From Rhynchopus sp. YZ270_cl-10 (Eukaryota; Euglenozoa; Diplonemea; Diplonemida; Diplonemidae): a stretch of DNA of 64,000 nt. Under the pieces are notes generated by a model that was not told where the DNA came from, ran no database searches, and saw only the letters and a program-made list of their open reading frames with translations. The stretch is from NCBI GenBank assembly GCA_964035575.1, contig OZ037930.1, forward strand, positions 124,001 through 188,000, given 5' to 3'. The position numbers were made by a program, and so were the translations under genes. Positions 13,526-56,282 of this stretch are shown piece by piece (position 1 is the stretch's first letter; the number at the start of each line of letters is the position of its first letter).

Positions 13526-13639
13526 CACGACGGACTAGTTATGACCATGACAGGTGATCTTACTAGTAAAATGACAGGTGAAATTTTTTGACAGGTGGTA
13601 CCTGTCATTTTGACAGGTACCACCTGTCAAAATACAGGC

Positions 13640-13735
13640 ACCAGGTACCCAGGTGCCCAGGTACCCAGGTACCCAGGTACCCAGGTACCCAGGTACCCAG
13701 GTACCCAGGTACCCAGGTACCCAGGTACCCAAGTA
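13640..13735. repeat. 8-bp tandem array (TACCCAGG), about 12 units
   Basis: Near-perfect 8-mer repeats next to the TGACAGGT words of E1. The mirror copy in E2 has about 28 units. Frames through it give endless Gly/Tyr/Leu/Val/Pro repeats and are not genes. Confidence 0.9.
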
Positions 13736-16056: not shown

Positions 16057-16326
16057 TCAATCACGAAAATTCCCGCTCATCTTCGCAAGACGAAACAGGG
16101 GGTCAGAAGGCGAGTCGCACAAACTCGCATTATCCCGTACTCCTTCTTCAGTTGCGTCTTCATCTCCTCTCTGCTTGTCCCCGGCTTCGCCGGATCCACC
16201 AGGAGCTTCTCCCCACTCCTTGTCATCTCCGAGGTCGGGTTGCAACGGAAGGAAATAGTCGGCAGATGGCTCGGGCGAGGAGGCTGGGAGGAAGATGAAA
16301 GAGGTGGGCGGCCCTTCGGGCCCCAC
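16057..16326 (-). pseudogene. Captured protein-coding fragment in E1
   Basis: A frame of about 90 codons reads as a normal hydrophilic acidic protein (for example PDLGDDKEWGEAPGG and GDEDATEEGVRDNASL) and ends at a stop. The mirror copy in E2 near 17690-17890 has one base fewer in a G run, which diverts the frame, so at least one copy is dead. No similarity recognised. Its place between TIRs suggests capture from a host gene or a lost element protein. Confidence 0.4.
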
Positions 16327-16529
16327 CCCACCTCTTCAATTTTTTTATTTGTATTTTTATTTTTTTCCAATGAAGAATTCTTCATCGGATTCTTCAGCGC
16401 GGAAAGACTGATTATGGCTTAGTACCGCACTCCCGTGTATTTGGTGCACCCAGATGGTCAAACACCCGATTTTTGCGTTTTTTTTTTGCATTTTTTTGCA
16501 TTTTTTCGCCCAGTATTGAGGACGTGTGG

Positions 16530-16765
16530 GGGTGAGGACCACCGAGGGCAATTTTGTGAATTTTTTTGGGGTCAAAAATTGACTTGTCTTTCGTAAATCC
16601 CACGAAAAATCGGGTGCGCAAAATCGCGTTATAGACCCCCATAGATGCTCAAAAGTGTCAAATTTTGCTTTTAATGGCCTCAAATCGTCGAAATTCGCCC
16701 TAAAAGGGGGCAAAAAAAAAAATTCGAGAGTCCCTTTCCCTGGGAGGCAATAGCCACCGGCAAAA
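16530..16765 (+). repeat. Scaffold module L, copy 1
   Basis: The module contains GACCCCCATAGATGCTCAAA, TTTAATGGCCTCAAATCGTC and ends TTCGAGAGTCCCTTTCCCTG then GGAGGCAATAGCC. Here it abuts the TGACAGGT array. Other copies: 17213-17450 (minus), 24140-24345, 25070-25190, 25600-25787 and 27890-28045 (plus), 35018-35210 (minus). Confidence 0.9.
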
Positions 16766-17212
16766 ACACCTGTCATATGACAGGTGGTACCTGTCATTTT
16801 GACAGGTACCACCTGTCATTTGACAGGTACCACCTGTCAAAATGACAGGTGCACCTGTCATTTTACAGGTACCACCTGTCATATTACTAGTAATATTCAA
16901 TTATCACCTGTCATATTTATAACTAGTAACACCACCTGTCATATCACCTGTCATGGCCATAACTAGTCCGTCGTGTAGGGGGGGGGGGGGGTAGGGGCGC
17001 ACGACGGACTAGTTATGGCCATGACAGGTGATATGACAGGTGGTGTTACTAGTTAAAAATATGACAGGTGATAATTGAATATTACTAGTAATATGACAGG
17101 TGGTACCTGTAAAATGACAGGTGCACCTGTCATTTTGACAGGTGCACCTGTCAAATGACAGGTGGTACCTGTCAAAATGACAGGTACCACCTGTCATATG
17201 ACAGGTGTTTTT

Positions 17213-17450
17213 GCCGGTGGCTATTGCCTCCCAGGGAAAGGGACTCTCGAATTTTTTTTTTTGCCCCCTTTTAGGGCGAATTTCGACGATTTGAGGCCGT
17301 TAAAAGCAAAATTTGACACTTTTGAGCATCTATGGGGGTCTAAAACGCGATTTTGCGCACCACGATTTTTCGTGGGATTTACGAAAGACAAGTCAATTTT
17401 TGACCCCAAAAAAATTCACAAAATTGCCCTCGGTGGTCCTCACCCCCACA
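17213..17450 (-). repeat. Scaffold module L, copy 2
   Basis: Reverse-orientation copy, mirror of the one at 16530-16765. Its GGAGGCAATAGCC end faces the palindrome centre and abuts TGACAGGT words. Confidence 0.9.
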
Positions 17451-18399
17451 TGTCCTCAATACTGGGCGAAAAAATGCAAAAAAACGCAAAAATCGGGTGT
17501 TTTAATCTGGGTGCACCAAATACACGGGAGTGCGGTACTAAGCCATAATCAGTTTTTCCGCGCTGAAGAATCCGATGAAGAATTCTTCAAAAAAAAAAAA
17601 AAAGGTACAAATAAAAAAATTGAAGAGGTGGGCTGGGGCCCGAAGGGCCGCCCACCTCTTTCATCTTCCTCCCAGCCTCCTCGCCCGAGCCATCTGCCGA
17701 CTATTTCCTTCCGTTGCAACCCGACCTCGGAGATGACAAGGAGTGGGGAGAAGCTCCTGGTGGATCCGGTGAAGCCGGGACAAGCAGAGAGGAGATGAAG
17801 ACGCAACTGAAGAAGGAGTACGGGACAATGCGAGTTTGTGCGACTCGCCTTCTGACCCCCTGTTTCGTCTTGCGAAGATGAGCGGGCATTTTCGTGATTG
17901 AAGTTGGTGAAGACACGTCTCCGCTCACAAGTTGTCGACGAACCCCTTGCTGCACTTTTGCATGCCAAGAACCATCCCGAGGGTACCTCAGTGAGGAGGT
18001 GTCCGCAGAGATTCTGCATCTCTTTGAATATCATAAAGATCCACCCCACCCACCACCGTGCGAAAGCTCAGAACTTCCGGCGCGCTACGCGCGCCGGGCT
18101 CGGGACGTATTTACCTTTTATGCACAAAATCACTATTCTTCATCAAAAATCCCGCTGCATTTTTTACAATGTACCCTAATTTTTTTCCGATCCAAAAAAA
18201 TGGAAAAAGCCCGGGTGCCCGCCCACCCCTGCAAAAATCGACTTGTACAGCCATTGCTTTGGTGTGGGCTTGTTCACACCGGGCAGAGTGCGAGTTATTC
18301 TCAGCAACACGGCCCCGGCCCCCCAGATTTTTCCCGTAAGAAAACCACCTGCGCGAACCATAGGCATTTTTTGTCCTCCCTCAAGTGCTCCCTCGAACC

Positions 18400-18885
18400 T
18401 GGCGGGAGGGAGGGAAATAGCTATTTACTGACGCAGTGGTGGGTTTGTATGTCCAATGATGTTCTCGTACCTGGAGAGTGGACCGAGTGCGAGGTATGTT
18501 TTTAACCCCCGGTTTTCACCACCCCCGCTCCCCCTTTTCGACATTTTCCCGCTCTGGATGTACGTCTCGCCTCCGGATGTAAATTGAAGCTATTTTTTCC
18601 CGCCCAAATTAGCGACTCAGGATTTGTGCACCTCTATCTATCTCTTGTTGGGTGTCCACCCCGGTACAGCCGGTCATGTACCAAGGTACACTGTTCACGA
18701 GAGGGTTTTGTATTTCAAGTCAACTTTTTCTTTTTGTTCTAAATGTCACTTTTGTCCTCAATTTCTCTTAACAGGTACCCGAACCGACGACCCTTCATTG
18801 TGACAGCGAAGCAGTGCCGACGGACGAGCTGGTGCAAATATTTCAAAATCAGGTGGCGACCGAGACCACCCTAATGAAAAAGTCG
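18400..18885 (+). other. Two-exon reading frame of module M, right copy
   Basis: The exon ends at 18495 (GAGTGCGAG) with donor GTATGT. The intron is about 280 bp with acceptor TCTCTTAACAG, and the second exon starts near 18775 and ends in a stop. The frame is maintained across the junction (VLVPGEWTECE then VPEPTTLHCDSEAVPTDELV). The intron contains a 110-nt repeat copy (18650-18722). The copy at 36240-36580 lacks that repeat but keeps both splice sites. Confidence 0.55.
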
Positions 18886-19889
18886 GGTTTATAAACCAAC
18901 TTTTCCATTAACCCACCCCATAGACCACCCTAATTATTATGAAACTCTTAGTCAGTCACTGCTATAGCCATTAACCCAGGGAGCATAGCTAGTGCAAGAA
19001 ATTCGACTTCGGGATCCGGAAAGTCTGTCCTCTGCTTGCGGAGGACTAGGCACAATAAAATATTGCGTTCCCCCAGAAACCAGTTTTTGTCACAGTAATT
19101 TTTGCCCAGGGCATGCTCTTGAAGCATGGCGGCTTGGTGTGAGAAGGGGCAGTGTGTTGTTTTGTTCTAGATTTCAACGGTTGTTAGAACGAGTCAAGTG
19201 GATGCTTATCTAAACACTGACTTTAGTACAGACCCGAGAGATCACACATGACTTTGAGGAAAGAACAAAGCAATGCATCTGTACCCGCACGCCAGGTTGT
19301 AGTTACTTCAGAATTTTCTTAAGTTTGCGCGAAAGAGAGCGGGGGCAACTCCTTTGTATCATAAGCCCGCTGTGCAGAACAAAGCGAGGAACCTTAAAAC
19401 ACTACCTGCGTGGTGGCTGAATTCACATCCCTTAGAATTACCAGAATTCAGCCTTTGTTGAAGTAACGTACATACTTGTATGTGCGTGTCACGCTTCTCC
19501 ATCCTTAAATGGGTGCACTGCTTCACTGCAGCGGGTAAGCCTCTCTCGACTAGTGCAAACTTAAGAATTTTCTGCTGTAACTTACCAAAATCGATTTTCT
19601 TTCACCCCAAACACCCGCAACACCCCACCTGCTACTTCGGTAGCCTGTGTTGTTGGGAGTTGGTTCTCATGTTGATCCCCAGTGTTTTGCACTGCTTCTT
19701 CTGAGCCCAACGCTGTTTGGCCTGTCGACGTAATAAATACGAAGACAGGGCGGCGGTGCCAACAATTTTCCGATGATGTAACGTTTATCTGATTGATTTA
19801 TCGTTTGATCTACCTTGTGTGCTACTTCATGCACACCCAAGAAAGGTTATTGAACGGTACTTTCAAGCGATACTTCGTTATGTCATTGG

Positions 19890-20115
19890 GGGTACCTGGG
19901 TACCTGGGTACCTGGGTACCTGGGTACCTGGGTACCTGGGTACCTGGGTACCTGGGTACCTGGGTACCTGGGTACCTGGGTACCTGGGTACCTGGGTACC
20001 TGGGTACCTGGGTACCTGGGTACCTGGGTACCTGGGTACCTGGGTACCTGGGTACCTGGGTACCTGGGTACCTGGGTACCTGGGCACCTGGGTACCTGGG
20101 CACCTGGGTACCTGG
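19890..20115. repeat. 8-bp tandem array (TACCTGGG), about 28 units
   Basis: Near-perfect 8-mer array, mirror of the shorter one in E1. Long frames through it are repeat artefacts. Confidence 0.9.
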
Positions 20116-20827
20116 TGCCTGTATTTTGACAGGTGGTACCTGTCAAAATGACAGGTACCACCTGTCAAAAATTTTCACCTGTCATTTTACTAGTAAAATC
20201 ACCTGTCATGGTCATAACTAGTCCGTCGTGCGGTCAAATGGGTGATACAAACCCACTTTTTTCAGTTTTCGATAAAAACGCATTTCTAAGTGAATCTGAC
20301 CCGAAAATGTGACACATATCGTGTGGAAAACTGTTTGTAGGTCGGTTTTGACCCATTTTTCGGGCCCAGGAGCGCCTAGACGTCAAAAATGAAAAAATTG
20401 CCTGTGATTGGTACCCCACGTTAAGTCTTAAGGATTTTCCTTAACGATTTCCTTAACGATTTTCCAATTTTTGACTATTTTTGCATATTTTCACACGAAA
20501 CTGCCCAAAATTAGAGAGTTTTGCCCCGAAAACAGGGTATCGTCAGTTTTTGAGCAAAAAAATCGCAAAAAAAATGAAAAAAATTGGAATTTAACTCCTT
20601 AAGGAATTGGTGGGGCTGGTACCAATCATGGGCAAATTTTTTTTTTTTTTGGAATTTCACCATTTGGGGTGCATGTGATCCCCCTCTGGCATGAAAACCA
20701 CCCCCCACGATGTTTTTGAGAGGTTCTTGGTCAAAATTTCTACTCAATCATCCAAAATAATGCGTTTTTATCAAAAATTCGAAAAAATGACGTTTGTATC
20801 GTTTTTTTAAGTGCATTTGACCCCCCC

Positions 20828-21834
20828 TAGGCATAGGTGCCCGCCGAGTCGTTTTTGGGCGAGTTGTCGGAACTTTACGATTTCACCTAACAACTCGCCC
20901 AAAAACTCGGACAACTCGGCCACAACTCGCCCTATACTCGGCACAACTCGCCCTATACTCGGCACAACTCGGCCACAACTCGGCCACAACTCGCCCATTT
21001 TTACAGGCAAAAACATACGGGGATGGGAGGTGACGTTGTAAGGTTACACACATGTAACGTTGGTACAACACATAATCTCAAGAAAAACAACCAGGGCTAA
21101 GGCCAAACGCCACTCATTACATGCACCTTGTCATATGACTAGTCATAGGTGGTAACTAGGTCGTGGTGGTCCATGGGCCACCGTGCACACTCACGGTTTT
21201 TGGTAATTGCTGGGGGGAATGGGATATACTCCGTACATGGATACCCACACAGAACACACGGTTCCCCAGACATCTGTCAGGCAATCACTGATTCACTTCA
21301 CACAGGTCGGGCAGGCGCTGCCTGCCCATCCTCTTTTCCTGTCTGCTATCGATTCCAGGTTCACAACGTTCACACGTTTAGTCAAAATGCTTTGGGCGAC
21401 GACTTCCTTTGGGATACACAAAACCACACAAAGCGCACATTCACAGACCAGCTGTGAAGCGTGGGATGCACAAGATAAAACGTGATGTGGTGTACCTGTG
21501 TACCTGTGTACCTGTGTACCTGTGTACCTGTGTACCTGTGTACCTGTGTACCTGTGTACCTGTGTACCTGTGTACCTGTGTACCTGTGTACCTGTGTACC
21601 TGTGTACCTGTGTACCTGTGTACCTGTGTACCTGTGTACCTGTGTACCTGTGTACCTGTGTACCTGTGTACCTGTGTACCTGTGTACCTGTGTACCTGTG
21701 TACCTGTGTACCTGTGTTTTTGTAGCCATAAAAAATCCCAAAAAAAAACAACTCGCCCAAAAAAAATGGGCGAGTTGTTGGCCGAATTTGGGCGAGTTGC
21801 CGAGTTGTTTTAACTCGCCGGGCACCTATGCCTA
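20828..21834. mobile_element. TIR element, word GGCGAGTT
   Basis: The inverted ends are TAGGCATAGGTGCCCG. Subterminal regions repeat GGCGAGTT/AACTCGCC many times. The interior has an unassigned 400-bp stretch and an 8-bp array (TACCTGTG, about 28 units, 21490-21717). It is followed by a run of about 25 G. No coding seen. Confidence 0.85.
21490..21717. repeat. 8-bp tandem array (TACCTGTG), about 28 units
   Basis: Differs by one base from the TACCTGGG array of E2 but sits in a different element. Reading frames through it repeat Val-Tyr-Leu-Cys-Thr-Cys-Val-Pro and are not genes. Confidence 0.9.
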
Positions 21835-23629
21835 GGGGGGGGGGGGGGGGGGGGGGGGACCCACCACCCCTACACGGCGGGGTCCACACACCCGAGGGTC
21901 CGTAAATTTTACGGACCCTCTTTACGGACCCTCAAGTGCGGACCCGGGTCCGTAATTACGGACCCTAGGGTCCGTAATTACGTACCCTAGGGTCCGTAAT
22001 TACGGACCCTAGGGTACGTAATTACGTGGTCTAAGGTGGGAAATCACTGTTTGGATGTGTGACTGCTGGTCGAAAAGCCCTGGGAGCAAACCGAGTGGTA
22101 CACAGGTACCACATGATAGACCATGATCATGTGGGCCTATCCCAAGTTACATACCGAAAAAAGTCGTGAGCTCGGTTAGTTGTCAAAGACGTCTTCCACC
22201 ATGCACTGAGGAGATAATGATCCAACAATTTACAAGAAAGATTACTTAACCTACTGCTGGAAATTGCCAGGTCGTAGTAACACACAAAGTGTGCCTCCGT
22301 TCGGGAATACCGGATATTCTAGAGACCAAAAAGGCCTCAAGAATATCTTCCGGTAGTCAAGGTATAACCGAATGAACGGCCCAAGACCCCCGTGGAGAAG
22401 TTAAATGTTGTAATGCTATCAAGTAGAAACTGCGAACACTGTCTTACCCTCCTCAATACATGGTGGAATATTTCTTTGACAACAAACCGAGCTCAAGAGT
22501 TTTTAAACTTCCCTGAGGGAATGCGAGACGCAAAATTTACCACCAGACCCTGTCTTCGTGCACCTTCGGTGCAACGCTGCAGACAGGCCAAACTGCGTTG
22601 GACTCAGAGGAATGCCTGCTGTGCAGTGTATCAATGAGAACCAAGTCCCAGCAACAAGGGGCGCCTTTTGGCGGGCGTTGTTGAGGGTGTTTGGGGTGCA
22701 AAGTTTTCCACAATTTTGATGCGCGGGTACAGAAGTGTTGTCTTGTTCTTTCATCTTTAGGAATGTAAATGTCAATCGCGTTTAACTACCACTAGGGCTT
22801 GTTCAGTGAACCCACAAGGGGTCGAAGGGGGTTGGTTATCCCATAGCTATCAAAGGTTGTGTCGACCAGGCTAATCCACTATGTTACGCTGTACGTTGTT
22901 AAATCCGAAGAAATAACACTTTAGCAGCCGCAGGAAGTTTGTTAAAAAGAGTGCCTCACGCTACACAAACCACCACCCGCGATTGACTTAGATGTTATAA
23001 CAAAGAGAATTCAGAACAAAACAACACCCTGCCCCATACACACTAAATTGTCATGCTTCAAGAGCATGCCTGGGCCAAAATTACTGTTGACCAAAAAGGC
23101 AACAAGACCACCCACAAGGAGTGTGAATTGTGCACTGGTTTTCTGGGGGAACGCAATATTTTCTTGTGTCTAGTCCTCCGCAAGCAGAGGACAGACTTTC
23201 CGGAAGGTTTCCAAAGTCGAATTTCTTGCACTAGCTATGCTCCCTTGGTTAATGGCTATAGCAGTGACTGACTAAGTGTACCCACCCCCCTCCACCCAGA
23301 TCTTCGTCCGCAAACTCAGAATAGATTGATGCGGGTAGATTTTGAGTTGTTGAATGTCGGACCGCGGTGAAGCTTCTCATCGCAATCGCGGGTGCAGTTC
23401 AGACTTCACGATCCTGTATAAGTGTAAATGTGGGGTGTGATTAAGTTATGGTATACAAACGTAGTAGTCGGGAAAGGTGAGGTTAATAAAAAAGGCTATT
23501 TATTGCCGTGAAATAAGATAGATTTTTTCCACGCTACAGGTCGAGAGAGTGACCTGCTGCACAAATGGTTCGAGTGAAGCGAGGTGAATTATGTGAAGCA
23601 GGTAACGAGCGCCTGTGGAACCAAATAGA

Positions 23630-23785
23630 AACGTAACACTCATCACACGATAAAACCCATGGGAGAGGTTGTGGTGAAACGCACACACCTCGACCTGAGG
23701 AGTGGCTCTGCAGCGCGGTTCGTCCCCAGAACCGCAAGTGTGTTCAAAATGCTTTGTTTCTATTTCCTCCTTCATGTCATGAGGT
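23630..23785. repeat. Dispersed ~160-bp repeat with a perfect hairpin
   Basis: A second copy is at 57100-57250. Both contain GCGGTTC and GAACCGC separated by seven bases, a 7-bp stem that is unchanged while flanking bases differ. It is not a tRNA: no acceptor stem or anticodon arm can be formed. Confidence 0.6.
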
Positions 23786-24139
23786 GACACAAAATGATTG
23801 GTGCGTAAAAAAATAGCTATTTAATAGTGTGAACATTACGCGTTTATTTCGAGTTGAAAACACGAACAAGTTGAAATATGCGGCATTTTTTTGTTCAATC
23901 TTCACTAGTAACTGAAAGTTAAACATAATTACATACCTTGTCTTCCCCGTAACCTGCGCCTTCGCTGCTTTTAAGGTGCTTTCTCTGGGTGCCCAGTACC
24001 CAGTACCCAGTACCCAGTCACAGGTACACAGATACACAGGTACACAGGTAAAACCCGTTAAAATTGTGTGTGAAAGTTAAAAATAGCTATATTTGCATTT
24101 CATTGAGGACACATAGGCCCACCAAGGGCAATTTTGTGA

Positions 24140-24345
24140 TGTCAAAAAAATTTTTTTTTCGGCCCAAAAATTGACTTGTTTTCGGTAAAACCCACTAAAA
24201 ATTGTGGTACTCTAAACTGCGTTTTAGACCCCCACAGATGCTCAAAAGTGCCAAATTTTGCTTTTAATGGCCTCAAATCGTCGAAATTAGCCCTAAACGG
24301 GGGCAAAAAAAAATTTTCGAGAGTCCCTTTCCCTGGGAGGCTCCG
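24140..24345 (+). repeat. Scaffold module L, copy 3
   Basis: Its distal end breaks off at GGGAGGC and continues directly into the TCCGTAATTACG words of E4. Confidence 0.85.
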
Positions 24346-24616
24346 TAATTACGTACCCTAGGGTCCGTAATTACGGACCCTAGGGTCCGTAATTACGGAC
24401 CCTAGGGTACGTAATTACGTACCCTAGGGTACGTAATGACACTCCGTAAAGAGGGAGTGTCCTAACATGCCGTTTTACGGACCCTCGGGGTGTGCGGACC
24501 CCGCCGTGTAATCCGTGTTGGCCTGCCTACCCCCCAGTTAGGCTGAGGCCTGGGTGTAAAAACCGGGGGTTAAAAACATACCTTGCAGTACTCGGCCTAC
24601 TCTCCAGGTACGAGAA

Positions 24617-24996
24617 CATCACTGCACGAACAAACCCACTAATACTGATACCTGCATTCTATTTGCCACATGGTCATGAGTATTTACAACCCTCCCGCTG
24701 GGTTTTTTGCTCGAGGGACCCTGTTGGACCACGAGGGGACCCGTGTGGGCGCGAGGCTGGAGCGCCATACCGGCGTAGAACGGCACGATGGTCGGGAGGG
24801 CTGTAGGAACGGGTTGAGAGCCGCTCTTCGATTGTGTGTACGTGCTGGGGGCCGAAGTGGCGTCAGACAAGGGGACTGCGAGTTCGGACTCATCGACGAG
24901 GTCCATAGAGAACTCGCTGTCCTGCGAAGGGACGGGCGGCCGCTCTCTCGCGTGGATGGAAGAGGGAGCTGCTACAGACACATTTTTTGTCTTCAC
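24617..24996 (-). pseudogene. Partial copy of OTU-like gene, middle segment
   Basis: The minus-strand frame matches the Ser/Pro-rich middle of the protein at 26246-27565 (shared SEFSMDL, DESELAVP, SDATSAPSTYTQ and PFYAGMA) at roughly 85 percent by eye. It then diverges where the element junction lies. Neither the protease nor the zinc-binding part is present, so this is a broken fragment. Confidence 0.75.
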
Positions 24997-25069
24997 AATT
25001 TGCTCAATCTGAGACTTTGGATTTTTTGGGCCATTTATGACCTACCACGCTTGGGCGACAAAAAAATTT

Positions 25070-25190
25070 TTTTTGGGTCAAAAATCGACGTGTCTTTGGT
25101 AAAAACCACGAATTTTCGGGTGCGCGAAACCACGTTTTAGACCCCCATAGATGCTCAAAAGTGCCAAATTTTGCTTTTAATGGCCTCAAA
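25070..25190 (+). repeat. Scaffold module L, copy 4 (partial)
   Basis: Contains GACCCCCATAGATGCTCAAA and TTTAATGGCCTCAAA, then breaks off into a palindrome-rich array built on CCTCGTNACGAGG (25191-25375). Confidence 0.85.
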
Positions 25191-25375
25191 GGATCATGGG
25201 AGCACCCCTCGTAGTTACGAGGGCACCCCTCGTCATGACGTCGTCGTGAGGAAAACCCCACGCCGTGCGTCGTCATTACGAGGGGCTGCCCCCGTCGTGA
25301 CGACGTCATTGCGCGCGTAATTTCCCACGTATTTTCCCTCGTCGCTCGTCACGTAATGTCATTACGAGTCCATGG
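25191..25375. repeat. Palindromic array, word CCTCGTNACGAGG
   Basis: Repeated CACCCCTCGT and its complement with several CGTCATGACG-type palindromes. It is found nowhere else in the window. It looks like one end of an element whose other end is lost or outside this block. Confidence 0.6.
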
Positions 25376-25599
25376 TCACATGATGGTGCGGGCGTGGTAG
25401 GTCATAAAATGGCCCAAAAAATCCAAAGAAAACCTCAGATTGACCAAATCGAGAAAAAAATTGTCAAGTCGAAATTCCAGCCAAAATACGGTCATTTTGG
25501 TCATACCCCGGTGTATGTAGTAGCTAGAACTACGTACACAGTCAATTTCCTGTGTGATTTCCTTCACAAAAAAAAAATTTTTTTTTTGTGAAAAATTGG

Positions 25600-25787
25600 T
25601 CAAAAATCGACTTGTCTGTGGTAAAAACCACGAAAAATTGGCTGCGCAAAACCGCGTTTTAGACCCCCACAGATGCTCAAACGTGCCAAATTTTGCTTTT
25701 AATGGCCTCAAATCGTCGAAATTAGGCCTATATAGGGCAAAAAAAAAAATTCGAGAGTCCCTTTCCCTGGGAGGCAATAGCCACCGA
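25600..25787 (+). repeat. Scaffold module L, copy 5
   Basis: Runs to GGAGGCAATAGCCACCG, then abuts the GGGGTACCCC array. Confidence 0.85.
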
Positions 25788-26050
25788 GTGTGACGGGGTA
25801 CCCCGCGGGGTACCCCGCGACGAACCCTAGGGTACGTAGCGGGGTACCCCGCGGGGTACCCCTCAGGTTTTGGGGTACCCCGCGGGGGTACCCCAAAACC
25901 CGGCTAACACCCCCCAAGGGTACCCCCCGGGGTACCCCGCGCGGACCGTACCCTACCCTGCGGGGTACCCCGCGCGAGGGGTACCCCTCGCGGACCGTAC
26001 CCTACCCTGTGGGGTACCCCCCGGGGTACCCCTCAGAGGGTCCAATGGGC
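25788..26050. repeat. Palindromic array, word GGGGTACCCC
   Basis: Fifteen or so copies of GGGGTACC/GGTACCCC with CGCGG spacers. Private to this location. Frames through it are Gly/Tyr/Pro repeats and not genes. Confidence 0.8.
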
Positions 26051-26245
26051 CACCGTGTAGTCTTTTTTGGTGAAGGGGCTTGGCCGACGACACTGAGAAC
26101 CTCTTTGGTTCATAGCTGTTAACGACGTCTGGTCCTACCTAGCTGTACACTCTAATTCTAAAAATAAAATAAAATAAAACCAATAGGCAAAGGGGGAGGG
26201 GGGAGGCTAAAAGCCAAACAAAAGTAAAGAATGAAAAAGAAAAAC

Positions 26246-27565
26246 TCAAGTGCTCTGGGACGGCCGCGAGTTCCTGCTCCGCTTTAGGCCCCGCAGACGG
26301 TTGTAGAGGGTGTAAGCCTCTTCCACCTCGTCGGAGCTCATCGACGGCTTCTTCGCTTCTTTCCACAGGTAGAGGCAGGTGAGGGCGTCATCCACCGACT
26401 GCCAATCCCCTCCCGCTGCCAGCGACTGGTGCTGAAGCGTGTTCGGGTAGAACGTGTCCTTCCACGCCTCGGCGGTCGCTGGACACCCCATGTTGTTGAA
26501 TCCTGGGCAGGGCGCCATACCGGCATAGAACGGCACGTTGGTCGGGAGGGCTGTAGGTGCGGGTTGAGAGCCACTCTCCGATTGCGTGTACGTGCTGGGG
26601 GCCGAAGTGGCGTCAGACATGGGGACTGCGAGTTCTGATTCGTCGATGAGGTCCATAGAGAACTCGCTGCCCTGCGATGCGGCGGGCGGCTGCTCTCTCG
26701 GGTGGACGGAAGAGGGAACTGCCTCAGAGGAAGAAGATACGGGGAGGGCTGAGTGGGTGTTTGAGAAGCCACTCTCCGTACCGGTCTGAGGTTGTGTTGC
26801 CCCGTCCGAACCAGGGTGTGTCTGCGCAGAGGCGCCGGGACGGGCAACTGCTTGTGCGACAGGGGGCACCGAGGACGCGACCGGAGTAGGGAGGGCTGAA
26901 TGTGTGGTGGAGTAGCCGCTCTCTTGTCCCTGGACGTCTGATGATGCCTGTCTCATGTTGCGTTGCGTCTGTGCCCTCCGCGCCTTTGCAGTCTCCACTT
27001 GGCTGGTCACGCGAGCTTCACGCTGTACCTTCACCAAGTTAATGCTCTTGGGGTCAATCATCTCGTGCGCGCGCGCAATGATCCTCGCCGCGCATGGCTT
27101 GCTGGACACTGGCAGGGCCCGCGGGCAGGTTGAGGGGAGGGAACGACACGGCACACACACCCAAACTGAGCACTCCCGACACTCCCAATGACGTTCACGA
27201 CCGAGGACCGCAGCCGAGCACAGCTCGCATTTCCCGAAATCCGCCCGTGAGTCTTCCAGGGGGCAGTCCAGAAGCCCCTCGCGTGACACACAAGTGAGAG
27301 GCGGCAGGCGCGGGGTCGGTTCATGCATGAGGAGGAACTGCGTCAGCTTCTCGGGGATATTGACCGGCGTGAAGTGACCTGCGGTGCGGCCATCGTGGGC
27401 TAGTGCGAGCACCTGACGGTATCCCACTTCGCCTGAGGGGGTGAAGACCGACGGTCGATGGCCACCAATGAACACCACCACCAGGGAATGCAGAGCTCGG
27501 GCCAGGCCGCTAACCGTCACCATGTCAGCCCAAGTGTCAGGACGCGCACACCCAGCGATGCTCAT
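26246..27565 (-). CDS. Truncated OTU-protease-like protein with zinc-binding motif
   Basis: A 439-codon frame from ATG 27565. Residues about 10-70 (WADMVTVSGLARAL, then a hydrophobic VVVFIGG, then ALAHDGRTAGHFTPV) resemble the C-terminal half of an OTU cysteine protease, with the His of GHFTPV as candidate catalytic base. The N-terminal half with the catalytic Cys is missing. A cysteine cluster follows (CELC, then CRECSVWVCVPC), typical of a zinc ribbon or RING-like fold. The rest is Ser/Pro/Thr-rich with repeated HSALP and ends in a short helical region. GCGACAG lies directly before the ATG and may be a splice acceptor, so earlier exons may be lost; upstream is only module-L type repeat. The gene lies in repeat DNA and has a partial second copy at 24617-24996, so it is probably element cargo. 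Confidence 0.5.
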   Translation of the reverse strand: MSIAGCARPDTWADMVTVSGLARALHSLVVVFIGGHRPSVFTPSGEVGYRQVLALAHDGRTAGHFTPVNIPEKLTQFLLMHEPTPRLPPLTCVSREGLLDCPLEDSRADFGKCELCSAAVLGRERHWECRECSVWVCVPCRSLPSTCPRALPVSSKPCAARIIARAHEMIDPKSINLVKVQREARVTSQVETAKARRAQTQRNMRQASSDVQGQESGYSTTHSALPTPVASSVPPVAQAVARPGASAQTHPGSDGATQPQTGTESGFSNTHSALPVSSSSEAVPSSVHPREQPPAASQGSEFSMDLIDESELAVPMSDATSAPSTYTQSESGSQPAPTALPTNVPFYAGMAPCPGFNNMGCPATAEAWKDTFYPNTLQHQSLAAGGDWQSVDDALTCLYLWKEAKKPSMSSDEVEEAYTLYNRLRGLKRSRNSRPSQST

Positions 27566-27579
27566 CTGTCGCGCCCATA

Positions 27580-28060
27580 CTCCGACACTTGGTTTTTTTG
27601 CACTTTTTGGTGCCCAAAAACCCAACTCAGGGGTCGAAATTTTCCCGAAAAAAAAAAAATTTTTTTTTTGAGATTTTTTGATTTTTTGACAAGGCGCTGT
27701 CCCATACAAAATGCACTGGTGGTACAGAAAATGACTGGGGAATTAACTCTAGATGCTCAAAACAGCCCAATTCTTGCTTTTTTTGACTTTTTGGTCCCAG
27801 AAGGGTACCTAGGGTGTAGTGAGCAGGCCTCAAAAACACTTGTGAAAAAAAAAAATTGGGATTTTTTTTTTTGAGATTTTTTCAAAAATCGACTTGTTTT
27901 TGGTAAAAATCACGAAATTTTGGGTTCGCGGAACCGCGTTTTAGACCCCCACAGATGCTCAAAAGTGCCAAATTTTGCTTTTAATGGCCTCAAATCGTCG
28001 AAATTAGCCCAATATAGGGGCAAAAAAAAAAAAAAATTCGAGGGTCTAGGTATGGAGAGC
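27580..28060. repeat. Repeat block with module L copy 6 (27890-28045)
   Basis: Contains a relative of the segment at 35220-35330 (GGGTCGAAATTTTCCCG region) and then module L ending TTCGAGGGTCTAGG. This abuts the CCGGTCT element at 28080. Confidence 0.75.
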
Positions 28061-28079
28061 GAGCACCTTAGAAGGAAGA

Positions 28080-28240
28080 TCGTACGTAAATTTTTGTGTG
28101 TACAATTGTATACCCGGTCTGCCGGTCTTTTTCGAGGGTGGGTAGGACCGGCCCTTATAGCCGGTAATCCTTAAGAGCCGGTCTTTTTACGGACCCTAAA
28201 GACCGGCTAAAGACCGGCTGTACACACTAATTACGTGTCT
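28080..28240. mobile_element. Small inverted-repeat element, word CCGGTCT
   Basis: Ends with GTGTGTACA and its complement in opposite orientation, enclosing repeats of CCGGTCTTT and AAAGACCGG. No coding. Confidence 0.55.
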
Positions 28241-28367
28241 GGTCGTTGCCGGTCTATTTACGGATCCCCCTTGGATCCCGAGCTTTTCCCCCGTAAAAGC
28301 GGTAGCTGCGCAAAGTTCCTAGAAAAAAAACCCTGCAGTGTAAATAAAAAAAGGAAATGGAAATTTG

Positions 28368-30173
28368 CTACATGCTTTGTAAAGAAGAATTGTCGGAAAA
28401 GACTGCATCCTTCTTGTATTGTCTCCTGCAGGTCGCAGGAAGGTACAGAACATCACAGCCCCAAGAAGACGCAACCACGTTCACAGGTGTGTATGCTGGC
28501 CCCTTGCTCTCAGCTGCCGCAACATCTTCAGCAGAGCACTCTCCCCTCATGAAGCGGCGCACTGCCAAGTTGTAGTCCTCCCAGTCCTTCTTCCCGCCAA
28601 CCACGTACATCCACTCCTCCGCTGGTGATGTGGTCGCGGCGCCTTTTGGAACAACCAACTCAGCAACAACCTCCGCATCACAGCCGGCAGCAAGCTCGAT
28701 CTTGCAGGGGATCAGACGCAGTTGGTGTTCGCACTCAGCATCGCTGAAGCAGAGGCGGTTGCACAGCACACTGCACCCCAACACACGGCCAGCACGTTCC
28801 AGCACGTTCACGTCACGAGCAAGTGTGCCCACCATGCTGAAGCGGCGCATCACTTCACATCCCATGTCACCACGCAGCACCTTCCCAGTTGCAACTCCCA
28901 TGTTCACATGTGGTGCAATGTTGTTGTCATCATCACACAGCAACAATGTAGCAGCGTGCAGTGCTGAGGTTGAGTGTGACGCACAAGTTTTCGACGTGTT
29001 GAACGAGCAGTGGATCCTGTCCCCAACAAAGACGTCCACCATCCCACGACGCACTTCTGTTGCCTGCAACGTCTTCAGAAGAAGAGTTGTGAACAGGCCG
29101 GAGAAGCGTGCACTGTCCTCCTCCAAGCGGTGCAACGTGTCTTTGATATTCAGTGTCAGCAGTGTTGCGTTCCGAGGCGACAAGCCCAATGACTGTGCTA
29201 CTCCCCCACCCCCCTCGCTCGCAACAGTGGACCCTATGCTGTAAGTGGCGATGCTGGACGACCCCTGCTCACTTACCTGGGGGAAGTGTCTACTTCGTTC
29301 ATCATCATCCTTCATATCGTCCTTGTCAAACGGCAGACACGTCAGCGGGAGGTAGGCCTTGTACTTCCGCAGGTTCTCCTCTATACTCTGCAGTGCGTCC
29401 CTCATCCCCTCAGGCAGCTCAGCTTCATGAAACTTCAGCATATCCGCAACCCCCTCTACGTCGTACCCCGCAAGCAGCGACGCGATCTCCTGCACGGTGT
29501 TGATCGTCCGCTGCATTGTTGCCTGCTCCTTCAGGATCGCCGTTGCAAACCCTTGTGTTGCGACGAAGTCGACGACGAAGACGCTGACAGCACCCAAGGT
29601 CACAGTAACAGAAGGGATGGCACACGGGAGCTTATCGCAGCTGCTCCTCTCCTCGAGGTACGCCCTCCTCCCGAACTCACCATCCTGCGGCACAAGACCA
29701 GGTAGGTCGAAGATGCCAAACCTGAAGAACTCCTCCGCAGCCATGAGAGCCAACCACACAAGCACAGCACACACCAACCCAGCAGTGTAACGTGTGGGCA
29801 CCTGCATCACGAGCAACATGTCCACAATGAGCACGAGTGGCGCCCAATACGTGACACTGTAGCAGCGACCAATCAGATCGGCAGAAAATACACACAACGT
29901 ATACATGCAACAAACACCAACCACGACAGGTGTCGTCAACTTCTTCTTGCACAAGATGTGCACTATTGAGAACACTGACGTGACCACCCCTACCATCGTG
30001 GACCACCTACGCAGCCCACCGTGCTTGAACCCAAAAAGCGAGAACATCACGTTGAATACAAGCGAAGAACAGTTGATCGCAAAGAACAACTCACGCTTCC
30101 TCCTCTCCTTTGCGTCAAGTGTTCCATCCAGCGTCAGTGCACCCTCAATGCAACGTGGCCACTGCAGCTTCAT
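28368..30173 (-). CDS. Multi-pass membrane protein with class III cyclase-homology domain
   Basis: 601 codons. ATG 30173 is chosen because TTAACACAG ends 19 nt upstream. Residues about 30-205 contain six hydrophobic segments, so the protein is integral to a membrane. About residues 335-500 resemble the catalytic fold of class III adenylate/guanylate cyclases: a strand LLTLNIKD, the VFVGD loop, and the NMGVATGKV...GDMGCEVMRRFSMVG region. The aspartate of VFVGD is kept, but the first metal-binding aspartate position reads Asn in LTLNIKD. The domain may therefore be inactive or regulatory, as seen in protist receptor-like cyclase relatives. The C-terminal 60 residues are hydrophilic. The gene is single-exon as read. 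Membrane topology is firm; the cyclase assignment rests on motif spacing only. Confidence 0.6.
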   Translation of the reverse strand: MKLQWPRCIEGALTLDGTLDAKERRKRELFFAINCSSLVFNVMFSLFGFKHGGLRRWSTMVGVVTSVFSIVHILCKKKLTTPVVVGVCCMYTLCVFSADLIGRCYSVTYWAPLVLIVDMLLVMQVPTRYTAGLVCAVLVWLALMAAEEFFRFGIFDLPGLVPQDGEFGRRAYLEERSSCDKLPCAIPSVTVTLGAVSVFVVDFVATQGFATAILKEQATMQRTINTVQEIASLLAGYDVEGVADMLKFHEAELPEGMRDALQSIEENLRKYKAYLPLTCLPFDKDDMKDDDERSRHFPQVSEQGSSSIATYSIGSTVASEGGGGVAQSLGLSPRNATLLTLNIKDTLHRLEEDSARFSGLFTTLLLKTLQATEVRRGMVDVFVGDRIHCSFNTSKTCASHSTSALHAATLLLCDDDNNIAPHVNMGVATGKVLRGDMGCEVMRRFSMVGTLARDVNVLERAGRVLGCSVLCNRLCFSDAECEHQLRLIPCKIELAAGCDAEVVAELVVPKGAATTSPAEEWMYVVGGKKDWEDYNLAVRRFMRGECSAEDVAAAESKGPAYTPVNVVASSWGCDVLYLPATCRRQYKKDAVFSDNSSLQSM

Positions 30174-30192
30174 TGCAAACAACCCCAGCTGT

Positions 30193-31060
30193 CTGTGTTA
30201 AGAATGCGACAGTCGCTTGCCGCTTGTTCCTTCTCGAAACTGTGTAAAAACTCTGGGTGTAGTGTGGTGACAAAACGTACTGCTAAGTTCTGACGCAAAA
30301 AGGGTATGGCAACCAGGTGCCCAAAAATGCAACAATTCAATCTGATTTGGACACTTTTGAGCATGTGAATTGTGAACAGGTAAGCACGACTTATTCTCAG
30401 CAAAAAACGGGGCGGAAGCAAAGGAGCGGGAGCGTGCACGTTTGTCTGGTATTGAGTCAATCTTGATGGTATCCCACTGAATTCTCCATTGCGGGGCTGC
30501 ACCGATGTGCAGTCAGAAAACTGGAGGACTTCAAACCAGCTTCCGACAAATGTCAAAACAACGAATAATTGAATGGTTGAAGGGAACCGACCAGACCCGT
30601 CAATGAAGTGTAGGTTACTTTTTTTTTTTGTATGTTTGAAAATAGATTCATAAGGGGGGTTACGGTGGTGGGTGGTGTAGATGAGTGAGGCAAGCGAATC
30701 TTACGACGATTTAAAGAGAACAAAAAGAATCCATAACGTATCTCTCTCGTTTGCACACATTAAATGGAAAGCGGTAAATCAGTGTGCGTCGAGACCCATC
30801 GTAACAAAAATAACCCCACAGTTTTCTGGGACCCTCAACCTTCACCTTGAAAAGTGCAGCTTACTTAACATTACACAACTTTTTGACATGTAAACATCAA
30901 AAAATGCCGTATTCATACAAATTATCGTAAGAATTCGACCATTATGGCCCATAGAATATTTCAAGAAGTTCGACCTTCTTTTACCGATATTTTTTTTTTC
31001 GTACGACGGTAACCCAAAAAACACCTTTGCAGCGCCTCCCTCCTTTTTTACCCTCTCCCC
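30193..31060. other. Intergenic, no gene seen
   Basis: AT-rich with T and G runs. I find no frame with coding texture and no member of the repeat families described here. Confidence 0.5.
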
Positions 31061-34000
31061 TCACTTCTCAACTCTTCTTGGCTCGATGTCGTAATGGTAG
31101 AACTTTCTGTTCAGCACTGTAAGGTAGACATTGCCGTACAGGTCTCCGTACATGAGGGAGTGCCGCTTGCTGCGTGTGAGTGCGTGCACCGGCGCCTTCG
31201 TGTATAGCGTGAGGTACGGCGTGAGGACTGCGCCGTCGCCGTTGTCCTCCTGGTCGAAGCACTCCTCCATCTCGAAAAGGAGGATGCTTCCGGTCTTCTG
31301 CCCGTTGTGCGCTGCTGCAAAGTATGCGGACCCAAGCAGCCCCGGGGCAAAGCACGACAAACTCCAGAACATTTCCGGCATCGCCGGAATACGTGTAATG
31401 CTCACCCCTGTCTTCGTCTCGGAGTGCCAGGACCACAGGATAACGTCGTGCACGTCGTTGGAAAGGATGATCTTGCCTGAGTTCGAGAGTTGTGCGCTCA
31501 GGACAGTGTTGCGGTGGCCTGAGAAGGTGAAGAGGTGTTCGCCCATGGCAGCGTTCCAGAGCTGCACCGTGGTGTCTGCGGAGGCGCTGACGACGGTCTC
31601 GCCCTGCATTTCGAAGAAGACGCTTGTGATGACGCTGGTGTGCTCGCGGTAGGACACAATGCTTTTCTTGGCGCGCTTTCCTTTCACGCAGAAGAGGCGG
31701 CATCTGGTGGAAGGTGGTCATGGTGGTGGTGGGGGGAAAGGGTTGTAAAATGATAGCAAAGTCGGATAAAATACTTCATGTGTACTTTCTACTGAATAGA
31801 AGGTGTACTAAATGTACCCAAACTAGCCAAAAAAAAATGGTTGAGAGAACATACTGCCAATCCTGACATCCGGTCACAACGTAGTGGCTGTTCTTGCTGA
31901 AGGTGCAGCTGGTGACGACCATGGGATGGTCGTACAACGAGAGCTGTCTCGCCGTGGCCAGGTCCCAGACAATCATGGTGTTGTCACGCGAGGTGGTGAC
32001 AAGGAGCTTGTCGTCATTGGAGATGAGACTGCTGGTTATGATGTCTTGGTGGCCGAAGTAGCGCTGCACCTCTTCGCCGTAGAAGGTGAGGGCGACGACC
32101 ATGGTTGACTTGCTGGAGGTGGTGATCAGGATCTGTTCGCTTGCCGAAATTGAGAGGCATTTGACGCGCGCAGAGTGACCTGGGAGCAGCTTAGTCTCAT
32201 GGTTCTGGATGCCCCCCTGCACCCGCCGCCGAGCAGGCGCAATCGTCGACAGACGCAAACACTTCTCCGAACTCATATCCGCCGCAAGCTCCGAACAATC
32301 TCCACTCACGCTCTTCTCTGGCGCCTTCGCCTTCCCCACAGTGAAGTCGCCAAACACAAACATCTCTGACTCCCCATCCACATCCGAGGAGAGGTCCCTC
32401 TTCGAATTGATCTCCTCACAGATCGCATCGTCCAGGTCGTTCTCCAGCTCCACAGCGAAGTCCGAAAACGCAAACACCGCGCCCGTTTCGCGCTGGAAGT
32501 CTGGGTGCTCCGTGTCCGGCTCCTCGTCACGGTCTGTATCAAGGCTAGAGATGCGCCGCAGGCGAACGGAGTCCTCCACAGTCTCCTTCTTCATCCCAAG
32601 GATGCGTGCGTCTCCAAAGGAAAACGACTCCGCAGGTACCAGGTCGTTGATCAGTAGGTCTTCTGTGAGAGCGGGGGGGGGGAGTAGGGGGTCCGACTCA
32701 GCCGTTTTTGGCTGGGACCCAACGTACAAAAAACTCATTTTTAAACTTCTGGCCATCTCCAAGGCAACTGCGGGTGAAAAACACCCTCAGAGTGGGTCAC
32801 AGGGGGCCTGTGGGCGAAAAACGACCCAGAAGCCACCCCAGAATACCAAAAAATGGAAAAAAATAGTGAAAAAACGGCTTTTTTCAGGTTTTGGCCATGT
32901 TGGGCAAAATAGCGGTTTTTCAAGAAAAAAACCAAAAAACGGCATATTTTTTGACATCACAAAGCCTCCTTTGGCACAAATATACCCCAAAAGTGGCCTG
33001 TGAGTCCATTCCAACCTGTTTTGGACATATTTGACACTTTTGGAAGTGTTTTTTGGTGTTTTTACATAAAAAAAATGGTATGGCAATGGTATGGCAGCCA
33101 CTCCGGTATGCTGTTTGACCCATATAGGGGTCAAGAAATGGCCAAAAACCCCCGAAAAAGGACCCTGGGAGCCCAGATAGTTCCGAATTTCCACCACATC
33201 CCCACCCAAACACTGCAAAAACACGACAGAAAATCGTCTTAAAAAACACACTTTTTTCAAAAAGGTCGTCAGGCAGGTTCCATAATGGACTTTTTAAAAA
33301 AAGTGTGTTTTTTAAGACGATTTTCTGTCGTGTTTTTGCGGTGTTTGGGTGGGGATGAGGTGGAAATTTGGAAAGATTGGGGTTCCGGGGGCCCTTTTTC
33401 GGGGGTTTTAAGCAAAAATATGGCCGAGAATGTGGTCGGAGCAATGGTGGCAGTGCTGTCCAAGGACCGTCCAAGGATTTTTTGGGGGTGTTTTTCAGCG
33501 TGAAAACACCAAAAAAACACTTCCAAAAGTGTCAAATATGTCCAAAACAGGTTGGAATGGACTCACAGGCCACTTTTGGGGTATATTTGTGCCAAAGGAG
33601 GCTTTGTGATGTCAAAAAATATGCCGTTTTTTGGTTTTTTTCTTGAAAAACCGCTATTTTGCCCAACATGGCCAAAACCTGAAAAAAGCCGTTTTTTCAC
33701 TATTTTTTTCCATTTTTTGGTATTCTGGGGTGGCTTCTGGGTCGTTTTTCGACCCACAGGCCCCCTGTGACCCACTCTGAGGGTGTTTTTCACCCGCAGT
33801 TGCCTTGGAGATGACCAGAAGTTTAATAATGAGTTTTTTGTACGGTCATTTACTATAGGGAGTCGGACCCCCTAGGCATACTGTGCGGGCGAGTAAAAAA
33901 AACTCGCCTACTCGCCAAAAACTCGCCTAAAACTCGCCCATTTTTGGGGGGCGAGTTTTGGCGAGTTTTTTTTTTGGGTAGGGATTTTACCTTGGGAAAA

Positions 34001-37000
34001 GTGTACACACGAAAATATGAGGGAAATTTGAGTTTTGAAGAGAAATTTTTTTTCGTTCCACTTGAACAAGACCTCTGCAGTTTGCTTTGTAGGCTTCCAC
34101 AACCAGTACCACCAGTCCAGCTGTAGCTTCTGCGGATCCATGAAGCTTGCACAGATGGGTGCGATGTAGTCGTGGGGGAATACCGCCAAGGGGTTGACTG
34201 CAGGGTTGCCATTTACCGGCATGGCGAGGACATTGTTGTATAGCGAGTGTAGCCCCGGCTCATGTCTTCGTCATCCTCCGGATTGTAGCACGTCTTGTCC
34301 CCCGGGATCTATGGCACGCTTGGATCTTCCCCTGGAGCAAATGTTTACATACATGCCTGTCAGCCACTGCCGTGACATGGTTGCCTTTAGACGTACAAGT
34401 GACACAATTTCAATTTTTTTGTGTGTTTTCGAGTGGCATGTTGTCATCAGTCACCCCCGCCCTCCATTTTCACATCCTGGTGCACATTTTCACCCCCAAG
34501 GTGCGTATGTGCACCAGGATTTGCACCCAAATGTGGGCGAGTTTAGGCGAGTTCAGGCGAGTTTTTGGCGAGTTTTGGCGAGTAATAGGCGAGTAGGGCG
34601 AGTTTTTGGCGAGTTTTTCCTGAAAATCAGGAAAACGAAAAACTCGCCTAAAAACGGCTCGCCTGCACAGTATGCCTAGGGGGGGGGAGGGGGAGGGGGA
34701 GGGGGTTTCTTATAGTAGGACTCAGTATAAGAAACCAACTTATTTTTAAAGCAAAAGGTCACATTGGGTCCAAAACTGGGGGAATGTCATTACATAAACG
34801 TCTAAATACACGGATGCTGCCAGATCTGGCCAGATTTGGGGGCCAATTTCCCAGATCTGGCTCGTTTTCCAGATGTGGAGATCTTGTTTCCAGATCTGGC
34901 CAGATCTGGCCAGATCTGGGAATCTGGGAAATTTTTTTTTTCAAAAAAAAAAAAAAACTCCCCAGATCTGGCCAGATCTGGAAATCTGGCCAGTTTTTTT
35001 TTTCCCTCAGATTTCTGGCTATTGTCTCCCAGGGAAAGGGACTCTCGAATTTTTTTTTTCGCCCCTAAAAAGGGCTAATTTCGACGATTTGAGGCCATTT
35101 AAAGCAAAATTTGGCACTTTTGAGCATCTGTGGGGGTCTAAAACGTGGTTTTGCGAACCCGAAATTTCGTGGTTTTTACCAAAGACAAGTCGATTTTTGA
35201 AAAATCTCGAAAAAAAAAAATTTTTTTTTTCCGGGAAAATTTTGACCCCTGAGCAGGGTTTTTGTGTACCAAAAAGTGCAAAAAAACGCAAGAGTCGGGT
35301 GTTTTGACGATCTGGTACCGCCATATGCAGTACAGGGGCCCACAATTTCGACTTTTTCTTAGCAATTTCCTTCATAATTTTTTTTTCTTCGATATTTGGC
35401 AAAGGCAAATCTCAGACAAAAAAAATTCACCCCTGATAGTGGGTCCTTGGGTGTCCAAAGATGCCAAAAACACAAAAATTTTGATGTTTTGACCATCTGT
35501 GGGCGCCTAAAACGCACTTCTCTGCCCAAAAAATGAAAATCGATTTTTCCTTAGCGTTTTTATAGCCGTGATTTTTGGGTATTTTTTCGCAAAGGGAAAA
35601 AAAAAAATATCAACCAAAATAGTGGGTCCTTGGGTGACCAAAAATGCAAAAAAACGTTTTTTTTTGGTGTTTTGACCCTTCAGAACCACCCAAAACGCAC
35701 TTTTGTGTACCAAAACACGCATATTTCACATTTCCTCAGCAATTCCTTCACAAGTGCAAGGTGATTTTTGACCAAACTAATTTTGTGCACTTTTTTTGTG
35801 GTCACGTAACGCTAAAATCCTCTCCGTGATGCGAGAATTACATGTGAGAATGCGATAATGATTCTCGCATGCGAACGCCCAAAACCACGAAGGAGGACGC
35901 AAGCAAGGCTTCAGTGCACTTAGGTACAGGATGCGTCGTTTTCAGTTACAAAAAAGGGTACTGTGAAGCGGTTGAGGCACACACACAGACCCGTTGCAAA
36001 ATGCATCTGGGACCCACGCTAGACCCCCCAAAAGCTGTAAAACCATATATTTCCATCTCGCGACCCCAGCGGATGTGGACTGAGGTGTTTTTTTTTGGGT
36101 GTTTAGAAAGGTTTTTGTCCGATTGGAGAATTTTTTCGGTAAGTGTTGCATTTTGTCCCCACTGAGTGTGCACTCAGAAAACACTCATCAATAAAACGAC
36201 CTTTCTGTTCGGTAAAAAATAGTTATTTTCTATCGTAGTAGTGGGTTTGTCGTGCAGTGATGTTCTTTGTACCTGGAGAGTGGGCCGAGTGCAAGGTATG
36301 TTTTTAACCCCCCGATTTTCTCCCTTTTCGACATGTTCTCTATTTTTTAGCTATTTTTTTTTTTTGTCAACAAAAATGTCACTTTTACGTTTAAGGGGTA
36401 CGGGGCGGCTTCTTGTTTGTTTGTTTGTTTTTTTGTTGTAGTCTCTACTTTTACATTCAATTTCTCTTAACAGGTACCCGAACCGACGACCCTTCATCAT
36501 AACAGCGAAGCAGTGCCGACGGAAGAGCTGGTGCAATTATTTCAAAACCAGGTGGCGATCGTAAAAGTCAGGTTTATATACCAACTTTTCCATTAACCCA
36601 CCCCATAGACCACCCTAATTATTATGAAACTCTTAGTCAGTCACTGCTATAGCCATTTAACCCAGGGAGCGTAGCTAGTGCAAGAAATTCGACTTCGGGA
36701 TCCGGAAAGTCTGTCCTCTGCTTGCGGAGGACTAGGCACAAGAAAATATTGCGTTCCCCCAGAAAACTAATTTTTGTCACAGTAATTTTTGCCCAGGGCA
36801 TGCTCTTGAAGCATGGCGGCTTGGTGTGAGAAGGGGCAGTGTATTGTATTGTTCTAGATTTCAACGGTTGTTAGAACGAGTCAAGTGGATGCTTATCTAA
36901 ACACTGACTTTAGTACAGACCCGAGAGATCACACATGACTTTGAGGAAAGAACAAAGCAATGCATCTGTACCCGCACGCCAGGTTGTAGTTACTTCAGAA

Positions 37001-56277: not shown

Positions 56278-56282
56278 AAAGG

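Follow-up and report, generated by a model that had tools for sequence, protein, structure and literature searches.

In the sequences compared here, DNA transposons with differing end words appear to have nearly one body, and their ends seem to travel with a transposase-like gene. We observe shared bodies, matched ends, co-segregating paralogs, two target duplication lengths, and discordant histories of interiors and ends. The elements are better described as distinct lineages sharing an interior than as a single family rebuilding its ends. The window is the whole stretch analyzed, 64,000 nucleotides long (C98:124001-188000), and the searched genome comprises 152.4 Mb in 126 contigs. Two inner modules are followed throughout, I on the left and L on the right.

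Module L in the window

The initial annotation listed seven copies of module L, and self-BLAST of the window confirmed all of them near the positions given there, each oriented toward the neighboring array (7/7). Five of the seven copies lie in true transposon ends; the exceptions are those at 25070, which adjoins a cut array, and 27890. It also named six end words. Proper ends were found for TGACAGGT (twice), TCCGTAATTACGGACCCTAGGG, GGGGTACCCC, and CCAGATCTGG, but CCGGTCT marks no end. The features of the window are as follows.

13526..16975, plus strand: E1, class B element; word TGACAGGT, tip CACGACGG, target duplication TA (sequence, self-BLAST); modules I (~13738-14841) and L (16535-16756, plus strand) (self-BLAST)
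13641..13738, plus strand: 8-bp satellite CCAGGTAC in E1, between the left array and module I
17000..20230, minus strand: E2, second class B element, mirror of E1; target duplication CG; L at 17215-17440, minus strand
21873..24508, plus strand: class A element; word TCCGTAATTACGGACCCTAGGG, tip CACGGCGG, duplication TA; L at 24115-24341, plus strand
~25036-25406, plus strand: small element with GACCTACCACGC repeats, delimited by eye; piece of L at 25059-25190, plus strand
25568..26057, plus strand: right end of a class F element; L at 25568-25786, plus strand, then GGGGTACCCC array and tip CCACCGTG
27592..28086, plus strand: class-D-type L copy; L at 27846-28046, plus strand; broken inside the first class D word
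34809..37771, minus strand: E7, class H element; word CCAGATCTGG, tip CACGGATGCTG, duplication TAAATA; L at 35016-35230, minus strand, and I at ~36428-37601 (self-BLAST)

The satellite CCAGGTAC recurs in E2 as a longer copy (19890-20115), and the interior of the class A element is only 77% like module I over 270 bp. The L copy at 25070 adjoins a CTCGTNACGAG-type (class C) array that is cut inside its tip; by eye, it is a class C end piece within a different small element, the one with GACCTACCACGC repeats. A second copy of this stretch (25036-25406) occurs at locus L047, with 98.6% identity over 426 bp. At 27890, the L copy matches a class D element (L107) with 98.2% identity across 495 bp, and it ends abruptly within the first class D word, directly after ...GAAGATCGTACG. 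The CCGGTCT cluster (28114-28255) was rejected as an element end, as it starts ~68 bp past L and no tip was seen after it.

E1 and E2 face each other in a nested inverted arrangement (12881-20644), with further inverted arms outside (415 nt, 93%). The class-D-type L copy is adjoined by a 487-amino acid frame with a cysteine-rich stretch (26246-27709, minus strand), which matches no Pfam family at E 0.001 and has one weak solved-structure match (E 0.21). Fragments of this frame occur at L047, L066, and L032 and in the window at 24763-24978.

Word arrays at both boundaries of the body

A match to the terminal 26 bases of L, with at most one mismatch allowed, was found at 624 places genome-wide, and the reversed control gave 0. 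Among the 100 matches listed, the 30 earliest exact copies by contig order (C1 to C4, L031-L060) were read. A word array lay directly beyond L in all 30, and these arrays fall into six classes: A (word TCCGTAATTACGGACCCTAGGG, 12/30 loci), B (TGACAGGT, 9/30), C (CTCGTAATTACGAG, 4/30), D (TACGATCGTA, 3/30), E (GACGCTATCCC, 1/30), and F (GGGGTACCCC, 1/30; L047, assigned by eye because its end is interrupted). The L pattern finds near-type copies, and the counts refer to these; classes whose L differs, H among them, are therefore underrepresented. Class D tips of the CCTACG type can likewise carry an L variant; we had considered such tips to be without L and rejected this, because the pattern had missed the variant and L107 shows L.

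The most frequent 8-mer in the 160 bases past L exceeded 200 of 200 dinucleotide shuffles in 28 of the 30 copies, the exceptions (L035 and L046) being class A arrays reduced to one unit. Across the 30 loci, its mean count was 7.8 in the arrays versus 3.1 in the 160 bases further out. The outer 160 bases exceeded their own array at three loci (L036, 5 versus 4; L049, 17 versus 11; L046, 3 versus 2), and the count of 17 at L049 is due to a satellite. None of the 30 right-hand loci joined L to random sequence, and genome-wide several palindromic word families, mostly unrelated, meet the body at the same boundary, as the initial annotation had anticipated.

On the opposite side, the left edge of module I occurs 296 times (at most three mismatches; control 0). 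The 24 left loci read were all exact matches, which favors class B: 17 were class B, 1 was class E (L068), 1 had an E/F-type tip with little array (L089), 4 were class J (TAACGTTA words), and 1 had no array (L066). The class J tip CATACTGTGGG was read in three of its four loci, and the fourth, L085, has a truncated array. A recognizable end thus starts 23 of the 24 loci, with L066 as the exception. This left edge is sharp: CCCC gives way directly to AATGACATAACG, and the adjoining 8-bp satellite has 2 to 40 units. The right edge, that of L, is staggered over about 20 bp. Class A left ends were fetched by guessed distance, and the tip appeared in two of nine; no class D left end was present in the fetched L092 and L104.

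Eight word classes (A-F, H, and J) carry module I or L, class H being known from the window. Class I (word TGACCAGGT) was seen at two loci, in one of which (L064) it is joined to an interior that looks, by eye, like the class A interior; it would be the ninth class carrying the body. Class K (word TGACAACC) was seen at one place, where 1.28 kb read held neither I nor L, and it may not share the body.

The words are matched within elements. Left and right arrays aligned with each other above all 100 shuffles in all eight two-end elements tested (B, A, H, C, D, E, J, and a second D). The expectation that each word has a matching inverted partner was thus borne out wherever both ends were read (8/8). 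Between classes, the words compared are mostly unrelated, with few cousins, because just 4 of 45 class pairs (A-F, B-I, C-I, and D-I) exceeded all 60 shuffles; the pairs B-K, H-I, and A-C were borderline, reached by 1, 1, and 2 of the 60 shuffles, respectively. A single ancestral word was rejected as the source of all, as 41 of 45 pairs did not exceed the 60 shuffles.

Tips begin with CAC... in most classes and with CATACTG... in class J, and none of those read is CACTA (CACGACGG, CACGGCGG, CACCATGG, CACGGGTT, CACGGTGG, CACGGATG, and CATACTGTGG). Tip patterns of classes A, C, D, and E had 0 matches in the control and the J pattern (at most three mismatches) had 2; all 100 J tip places among the matches listed were exact. 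Some D, J, and C tip pairs lie tens of bases apart (e.g., G000:C17:799144-799217 and C7:1904042-1904093) and look like fold-back remnants consisting of ends alone. Other tip pairs mark long elements, of class J at C21:1064401-1071453 and C72:616413-624013 and of class D at C14:427071-433725.

By eye, we also noted a second element group in the window, with outer tips GGCATA.../...TATGCC, often at CCTAGG (13305-13525, 20842-21830, and 33870-34680). Its inner words differ (GCGAGAAT, GGCGAGT, and GACGAACA), so that here again the tip appears constant and the word changes. An element of this type, likewise recognized by eye, also lies past the class A tip of L057.

Two target duplication lengths

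Duplications were taken as the longest direct repeat from paired flanks in 26 pairs. A 6-bp repeat was present in all seven D, H, and J pairs (D 3/3, H 1/1, and J 3/3). These repeats are A/T throughout except for one G, and two of the seven (L065/L032 and L086/L095) are weaker cases through poly-T runs. A 2-bp repeat was present in 15 of 19 A, B, C, and E pairs (A 3/3, C 2/2, E 1/1, and B 9/13); of the four B pairs without a clear one, one is a poly-C run and the other three have 0 or 1 bp. Inverted ends with a clear duplication of class-wise constant length, 2 or 6 bp, as in cut-and-paste transposition, were therefore found in 22 of the 26 pairs. Target duplication length is set by the transposase, and with both 2-bp and 6-bp classes present, two transposition systems are likely at work.

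Interiors and ends have different histories

Modules I and L recur in most classes at ~84 to 99% identity. We compared 31 copies of module I over 925 bp in a tree that omits E_L061 (a duplicate of L068), keeps the truncated L066 as unclassed, and has the class labels of L078, L034, and L039 set by hand. Interiors of classes E and F are 98.6% and 96.8% identical, respectively, to those of the main class B group, yet the mutual resemblance of B, E, and F ends is not above shuffles. Classes C and J have 98.1% identical interiors despite differing in duplication length (2 and 6 bp, respectively). Identity between B and C is 93.7%, a comparison made with non-coding C copies (L034 and L039), the T5-bearing element described below being known by a 36-bp I edge alone. 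Classes D and H form a third interior clade.

In this tree, a single class B copy (L083) clusters with classes C and J at a support of 0.987. Its interior is 97.3% identical to C and 94.2% to the main B group; its left end is identical at 111 to 115 of 117 positions to 15 of 16 other class B left ends and at 91 of 105 to that of L078. By this tree, class B ends occur on two interior lineages, with interior support coming largely from one copy, L083, and bodies and ends have apparently had different histories.

Transposase-like paralogs accompany different ends

Two coding elements, on C3 and C4, have 7.7 kb between the I edge and L; a comparison over 4801 bp shows no difference between them. 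The left ends of both are class B, as is the one right end read, on C3. They encode a 608-amino acid protein with three C-terminal C2H2 fingers (T1, P0005) and a 336-amino acid companion without a Pfam match (P0004). Public collections yielded six relatives of P0005: P0006, a 392-amino acid stretch identical to T1; P0007-P0010, full length and 40 to 45% identical to P0005; and P0011, partial, at 39%. P0008 is T2, from the same genome as T1. No relatives in viral contigs were confirmed.

A Pfam scan of P0005 and five relatives returned essentially zinc fingers only, with no recognized catalytic domain and no Mutator-type transposase domain. Tnp2/Transposase_21 was likewise absent from P0005 and its relatives, and a genome search for it gave 0 matches, as did the control genomes. 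Conserved acidic positions are visible in alignment A1, where a catalytic role is putative.

T1 is present in eight full-length, identical copies, and T2 in 16 places at 99 to 100% over its whole length, with further partial places and more distant paralogs. Identities are 46% between T1 and T2, 38% between T1 and T5, and 31% between T2 and T8. The companion adjoins T1 in all eight places and also occurs beside T2 (~30% identity) and T3 (31%); it diverges faster than the transposase-like protein, because these values compare with 46% for the latter. A 30% companion match that we had considered a remnant in E1-type elements belongs to a neighboring class K element.

Each of these paralogs keeps company with particular ends. 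In all six copies that could be checked, the end of T1 lies 1639 to 1642 bp from the I edge, with class B. For T5 or T9, the latter matching T2 residues 7-240 only, all three copies on the listed contigs (C13, C23, and C40) are bracketed by a pair of class C tips, and on C40 the left end is class C and leads into the first bases of I. Both checkable copies of T8 have a class A left tip at a distance of 1.22 to 1.24 kb, and T2 lies beside a class K end in the one place read, on C3. Comparison by eye placed none of the listed P0005-like places within paired tips of class D (first 100 of 286 tip places listed) or class J (first 100 of 206). The word-specific transposases for which the initial annotation proposed a search thus have plausible candidates: paralogous transposase-like proteins appear to accompany different end classes (T1 with B, T5/T9 with C, T8 with A, and T2 with K). 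Further paralogs, ~30% identical to T1, occur as 525-amino acid frames in ten places (e.g., G000:C60:215969-217363 and C7:1452130-1453524) and as 691-amino acid frames in three (e.g., C16:1264885-1266132).

The small elements contain no long intact gene. No RNA gene was recognized in the interior, with no Rfam match at a family's curated score in the window from 12000 to 39000, where the matches at E up to 0.1 are hairpin look-alikes; ARAGORN found no tRNA in the window.

Comparison with described systems

The initial annotation knew of no described family with this behavior, which is too strong for the words alone: diverging end motifs are described in CACTA and VANDAL elements. Diverging words have precedents, and the unusual part is a body that spans two duplication lengths and several paralogs. 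In the titles and abstract openings returned by searches of one open-access library, we recognized no description of one transposon body with many unrelated ends, which does not prove its absence.

Like CACTA (En/Spm) elements, which have CAC-type tips and direct and inverted subterminal repeats that vary between subfamilies (PMC2613891), the elements here have direct and inverted subterminal arrays at both ends (8/8 elements, with 28/30 arrays above shuffles). In the soybean elements Tgmt* and Tgm1, these repeats differ between subfamilies, and a transposase and a DNA-binding protein for the repeats are described, as is a 3-bp target duplication for Tgmt* (PMC2613891). By contrast, tips here are not CACTA and duplications are 2 or 6 bp, not 3 (PMC2613891). 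Interiors are moreover common to several end classes, and Transposase_21 has no match (the control being silent too). Where CACTA has its repeat-reading DNA-binding protein, the fast-diverging companion P0004 stands beside T1, T2, and T3 and is a putative reader.

In Arabidopsis VANDAL elements, tandem short motifs also change fast between related elements and are matched by element-coded VANC proteins (PMC5735166). Those motifs, however, are anti-silencing targets in non-coding regions (PMC5735166), whereas here matched arrays stand at both ends, and whole ends and the transposase paralog differ on a common body. Galileo, of the P superfamily in Drosophila, resembles our elements in its restructured terminal repeats with tandem repeats, and inter-copy exchange and template switching in gap repair have been discussed for it (PMC4168063). 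Its subfamilies belong to one superfamily (PMC4168063), whereas duplication length differs here among classes sharing a body. In Pack-TIR and FoSTeST elements, too, gap filling or template switching places a foreign interior within the ends of a transposon (PMC8277862). The filler there is other genomic sequence (PMC8277862); here, it is the body of other transposons.

Models for the shared body

We consider it probable that transposon lineages, each with its own ends and transposase, have exchanged a common interior, probably via repair or recombination. The elements look like cut-and-paste DNA transposons, mostly non-coding derivatives, and a lineage would consist of a short tip and 100 to 300 bp of array of its own word. 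Classes A, B, C, and K would each have their own paralog of the ~610-amino acid zinc-finger transposase-like protein, and T1, T2, and T3 are accompanied by the small companion protein. We infer that the zinc-finger protein is the transposase and that the words are binding sites of this protein or of its companion. Modules I and L would be untied to any lineage and copied between lineages, giving one body with different matched end pairs. Template switching, ectopic repair of excision gaps, or unequal recombination are candidate routes, and body replacement would be expected if an excision gap were repaired from another element or through unequal exchange.

The initial annotation instead favored one family that swaps or rapidly rebuilds its ends. 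For this, new tandem palindromes would expand in place, ends would be kept alike by conversion, and transposase and words would co-evolve, as in VANDAL and VANC, where target motifs in tandem repeats differ between related elements (PMC5735166). The cousin words A-F and B-I, and the borderline A-C, B-K, and H-I, fit such a history, but it must then place unrelated ends and tips on 98 to 99% identical interiors and class B in two interior clades. Array, tip, and paralog change together, and duplication length changes as well, between 2 and 6 bp; we judge in-place rebuilding unlikely. A functional or homogenized interior, inherited vertically while just the ends and transposases diverged fast, would explain I and L across most classes at ~84 to 99% identity. 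Such a history is improbable, given the lack of a long intact gene in the small elements and of an RNA family at threshold, the split of class B on the tree, and a body common to the 6-bp classes too.

It is also quite improbable that each end type took the single body as cargo once, by Pack-TIR-like gap filling, with no continuing exchange. Gap filling is described for other transposons (PMC8277862), and the sharp left and staggered right edges would suit it; however, two interior lineages lie under class B ends, and coding B and C elements have the I edge beside their own paralogs, so the body is not just non-coding cargo. That a single broadly acting transposase moves all classes, leaving end words free to vary, is hardly credible with different paralogs at different ends and duplications of 2 or 6 bp, even though the proteins found are related and most tips start with CAC.

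Exchange among lineages could amount to a modular transposon community, in which a common body is recombined with word-specific modules for recognition, made up of tips, word arrays, and a transposase and its companion, and in which at least two transposition systems take part, leaving 2-bp and 6-bp duplications; we hold this wider reading tentatively, as a real possibility that falls somewhat short of even odds. If true, one body would be the object of competition among transposases from different lineages, which would also spread it. Naming and dating, which usually assume one history for interior and ends, would be misled by interior similarity, as bodies 98% identical lie between ends that leave different duplications. 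The genome also provides a natural set of related zinc-finger proteins of transposase-like type, together with the word arrays that belong to them, making joint specificity change of transposase and end repeats directly testable.

Other features of the window

Frames for myosin, WD40, and reverse transcriptase were found in the window and mark the DNA as eukaryotic. An imperfect long inverted repeat (32723-33844; 87.6% over 1149 bp) matches Rfam hairpin models below their curated scores. Tandem arrays with 300-bp units lie in long minus-strand frames at 38583-39199 (82% matches) and 40728-42188 (86%). Two further tandem arrays (51422-51777 and 55488-56282) have an 81-bp unit in a 1106-amino acid reverse-transcriptase frame and a 262-bp unit in three copies (99% matches).
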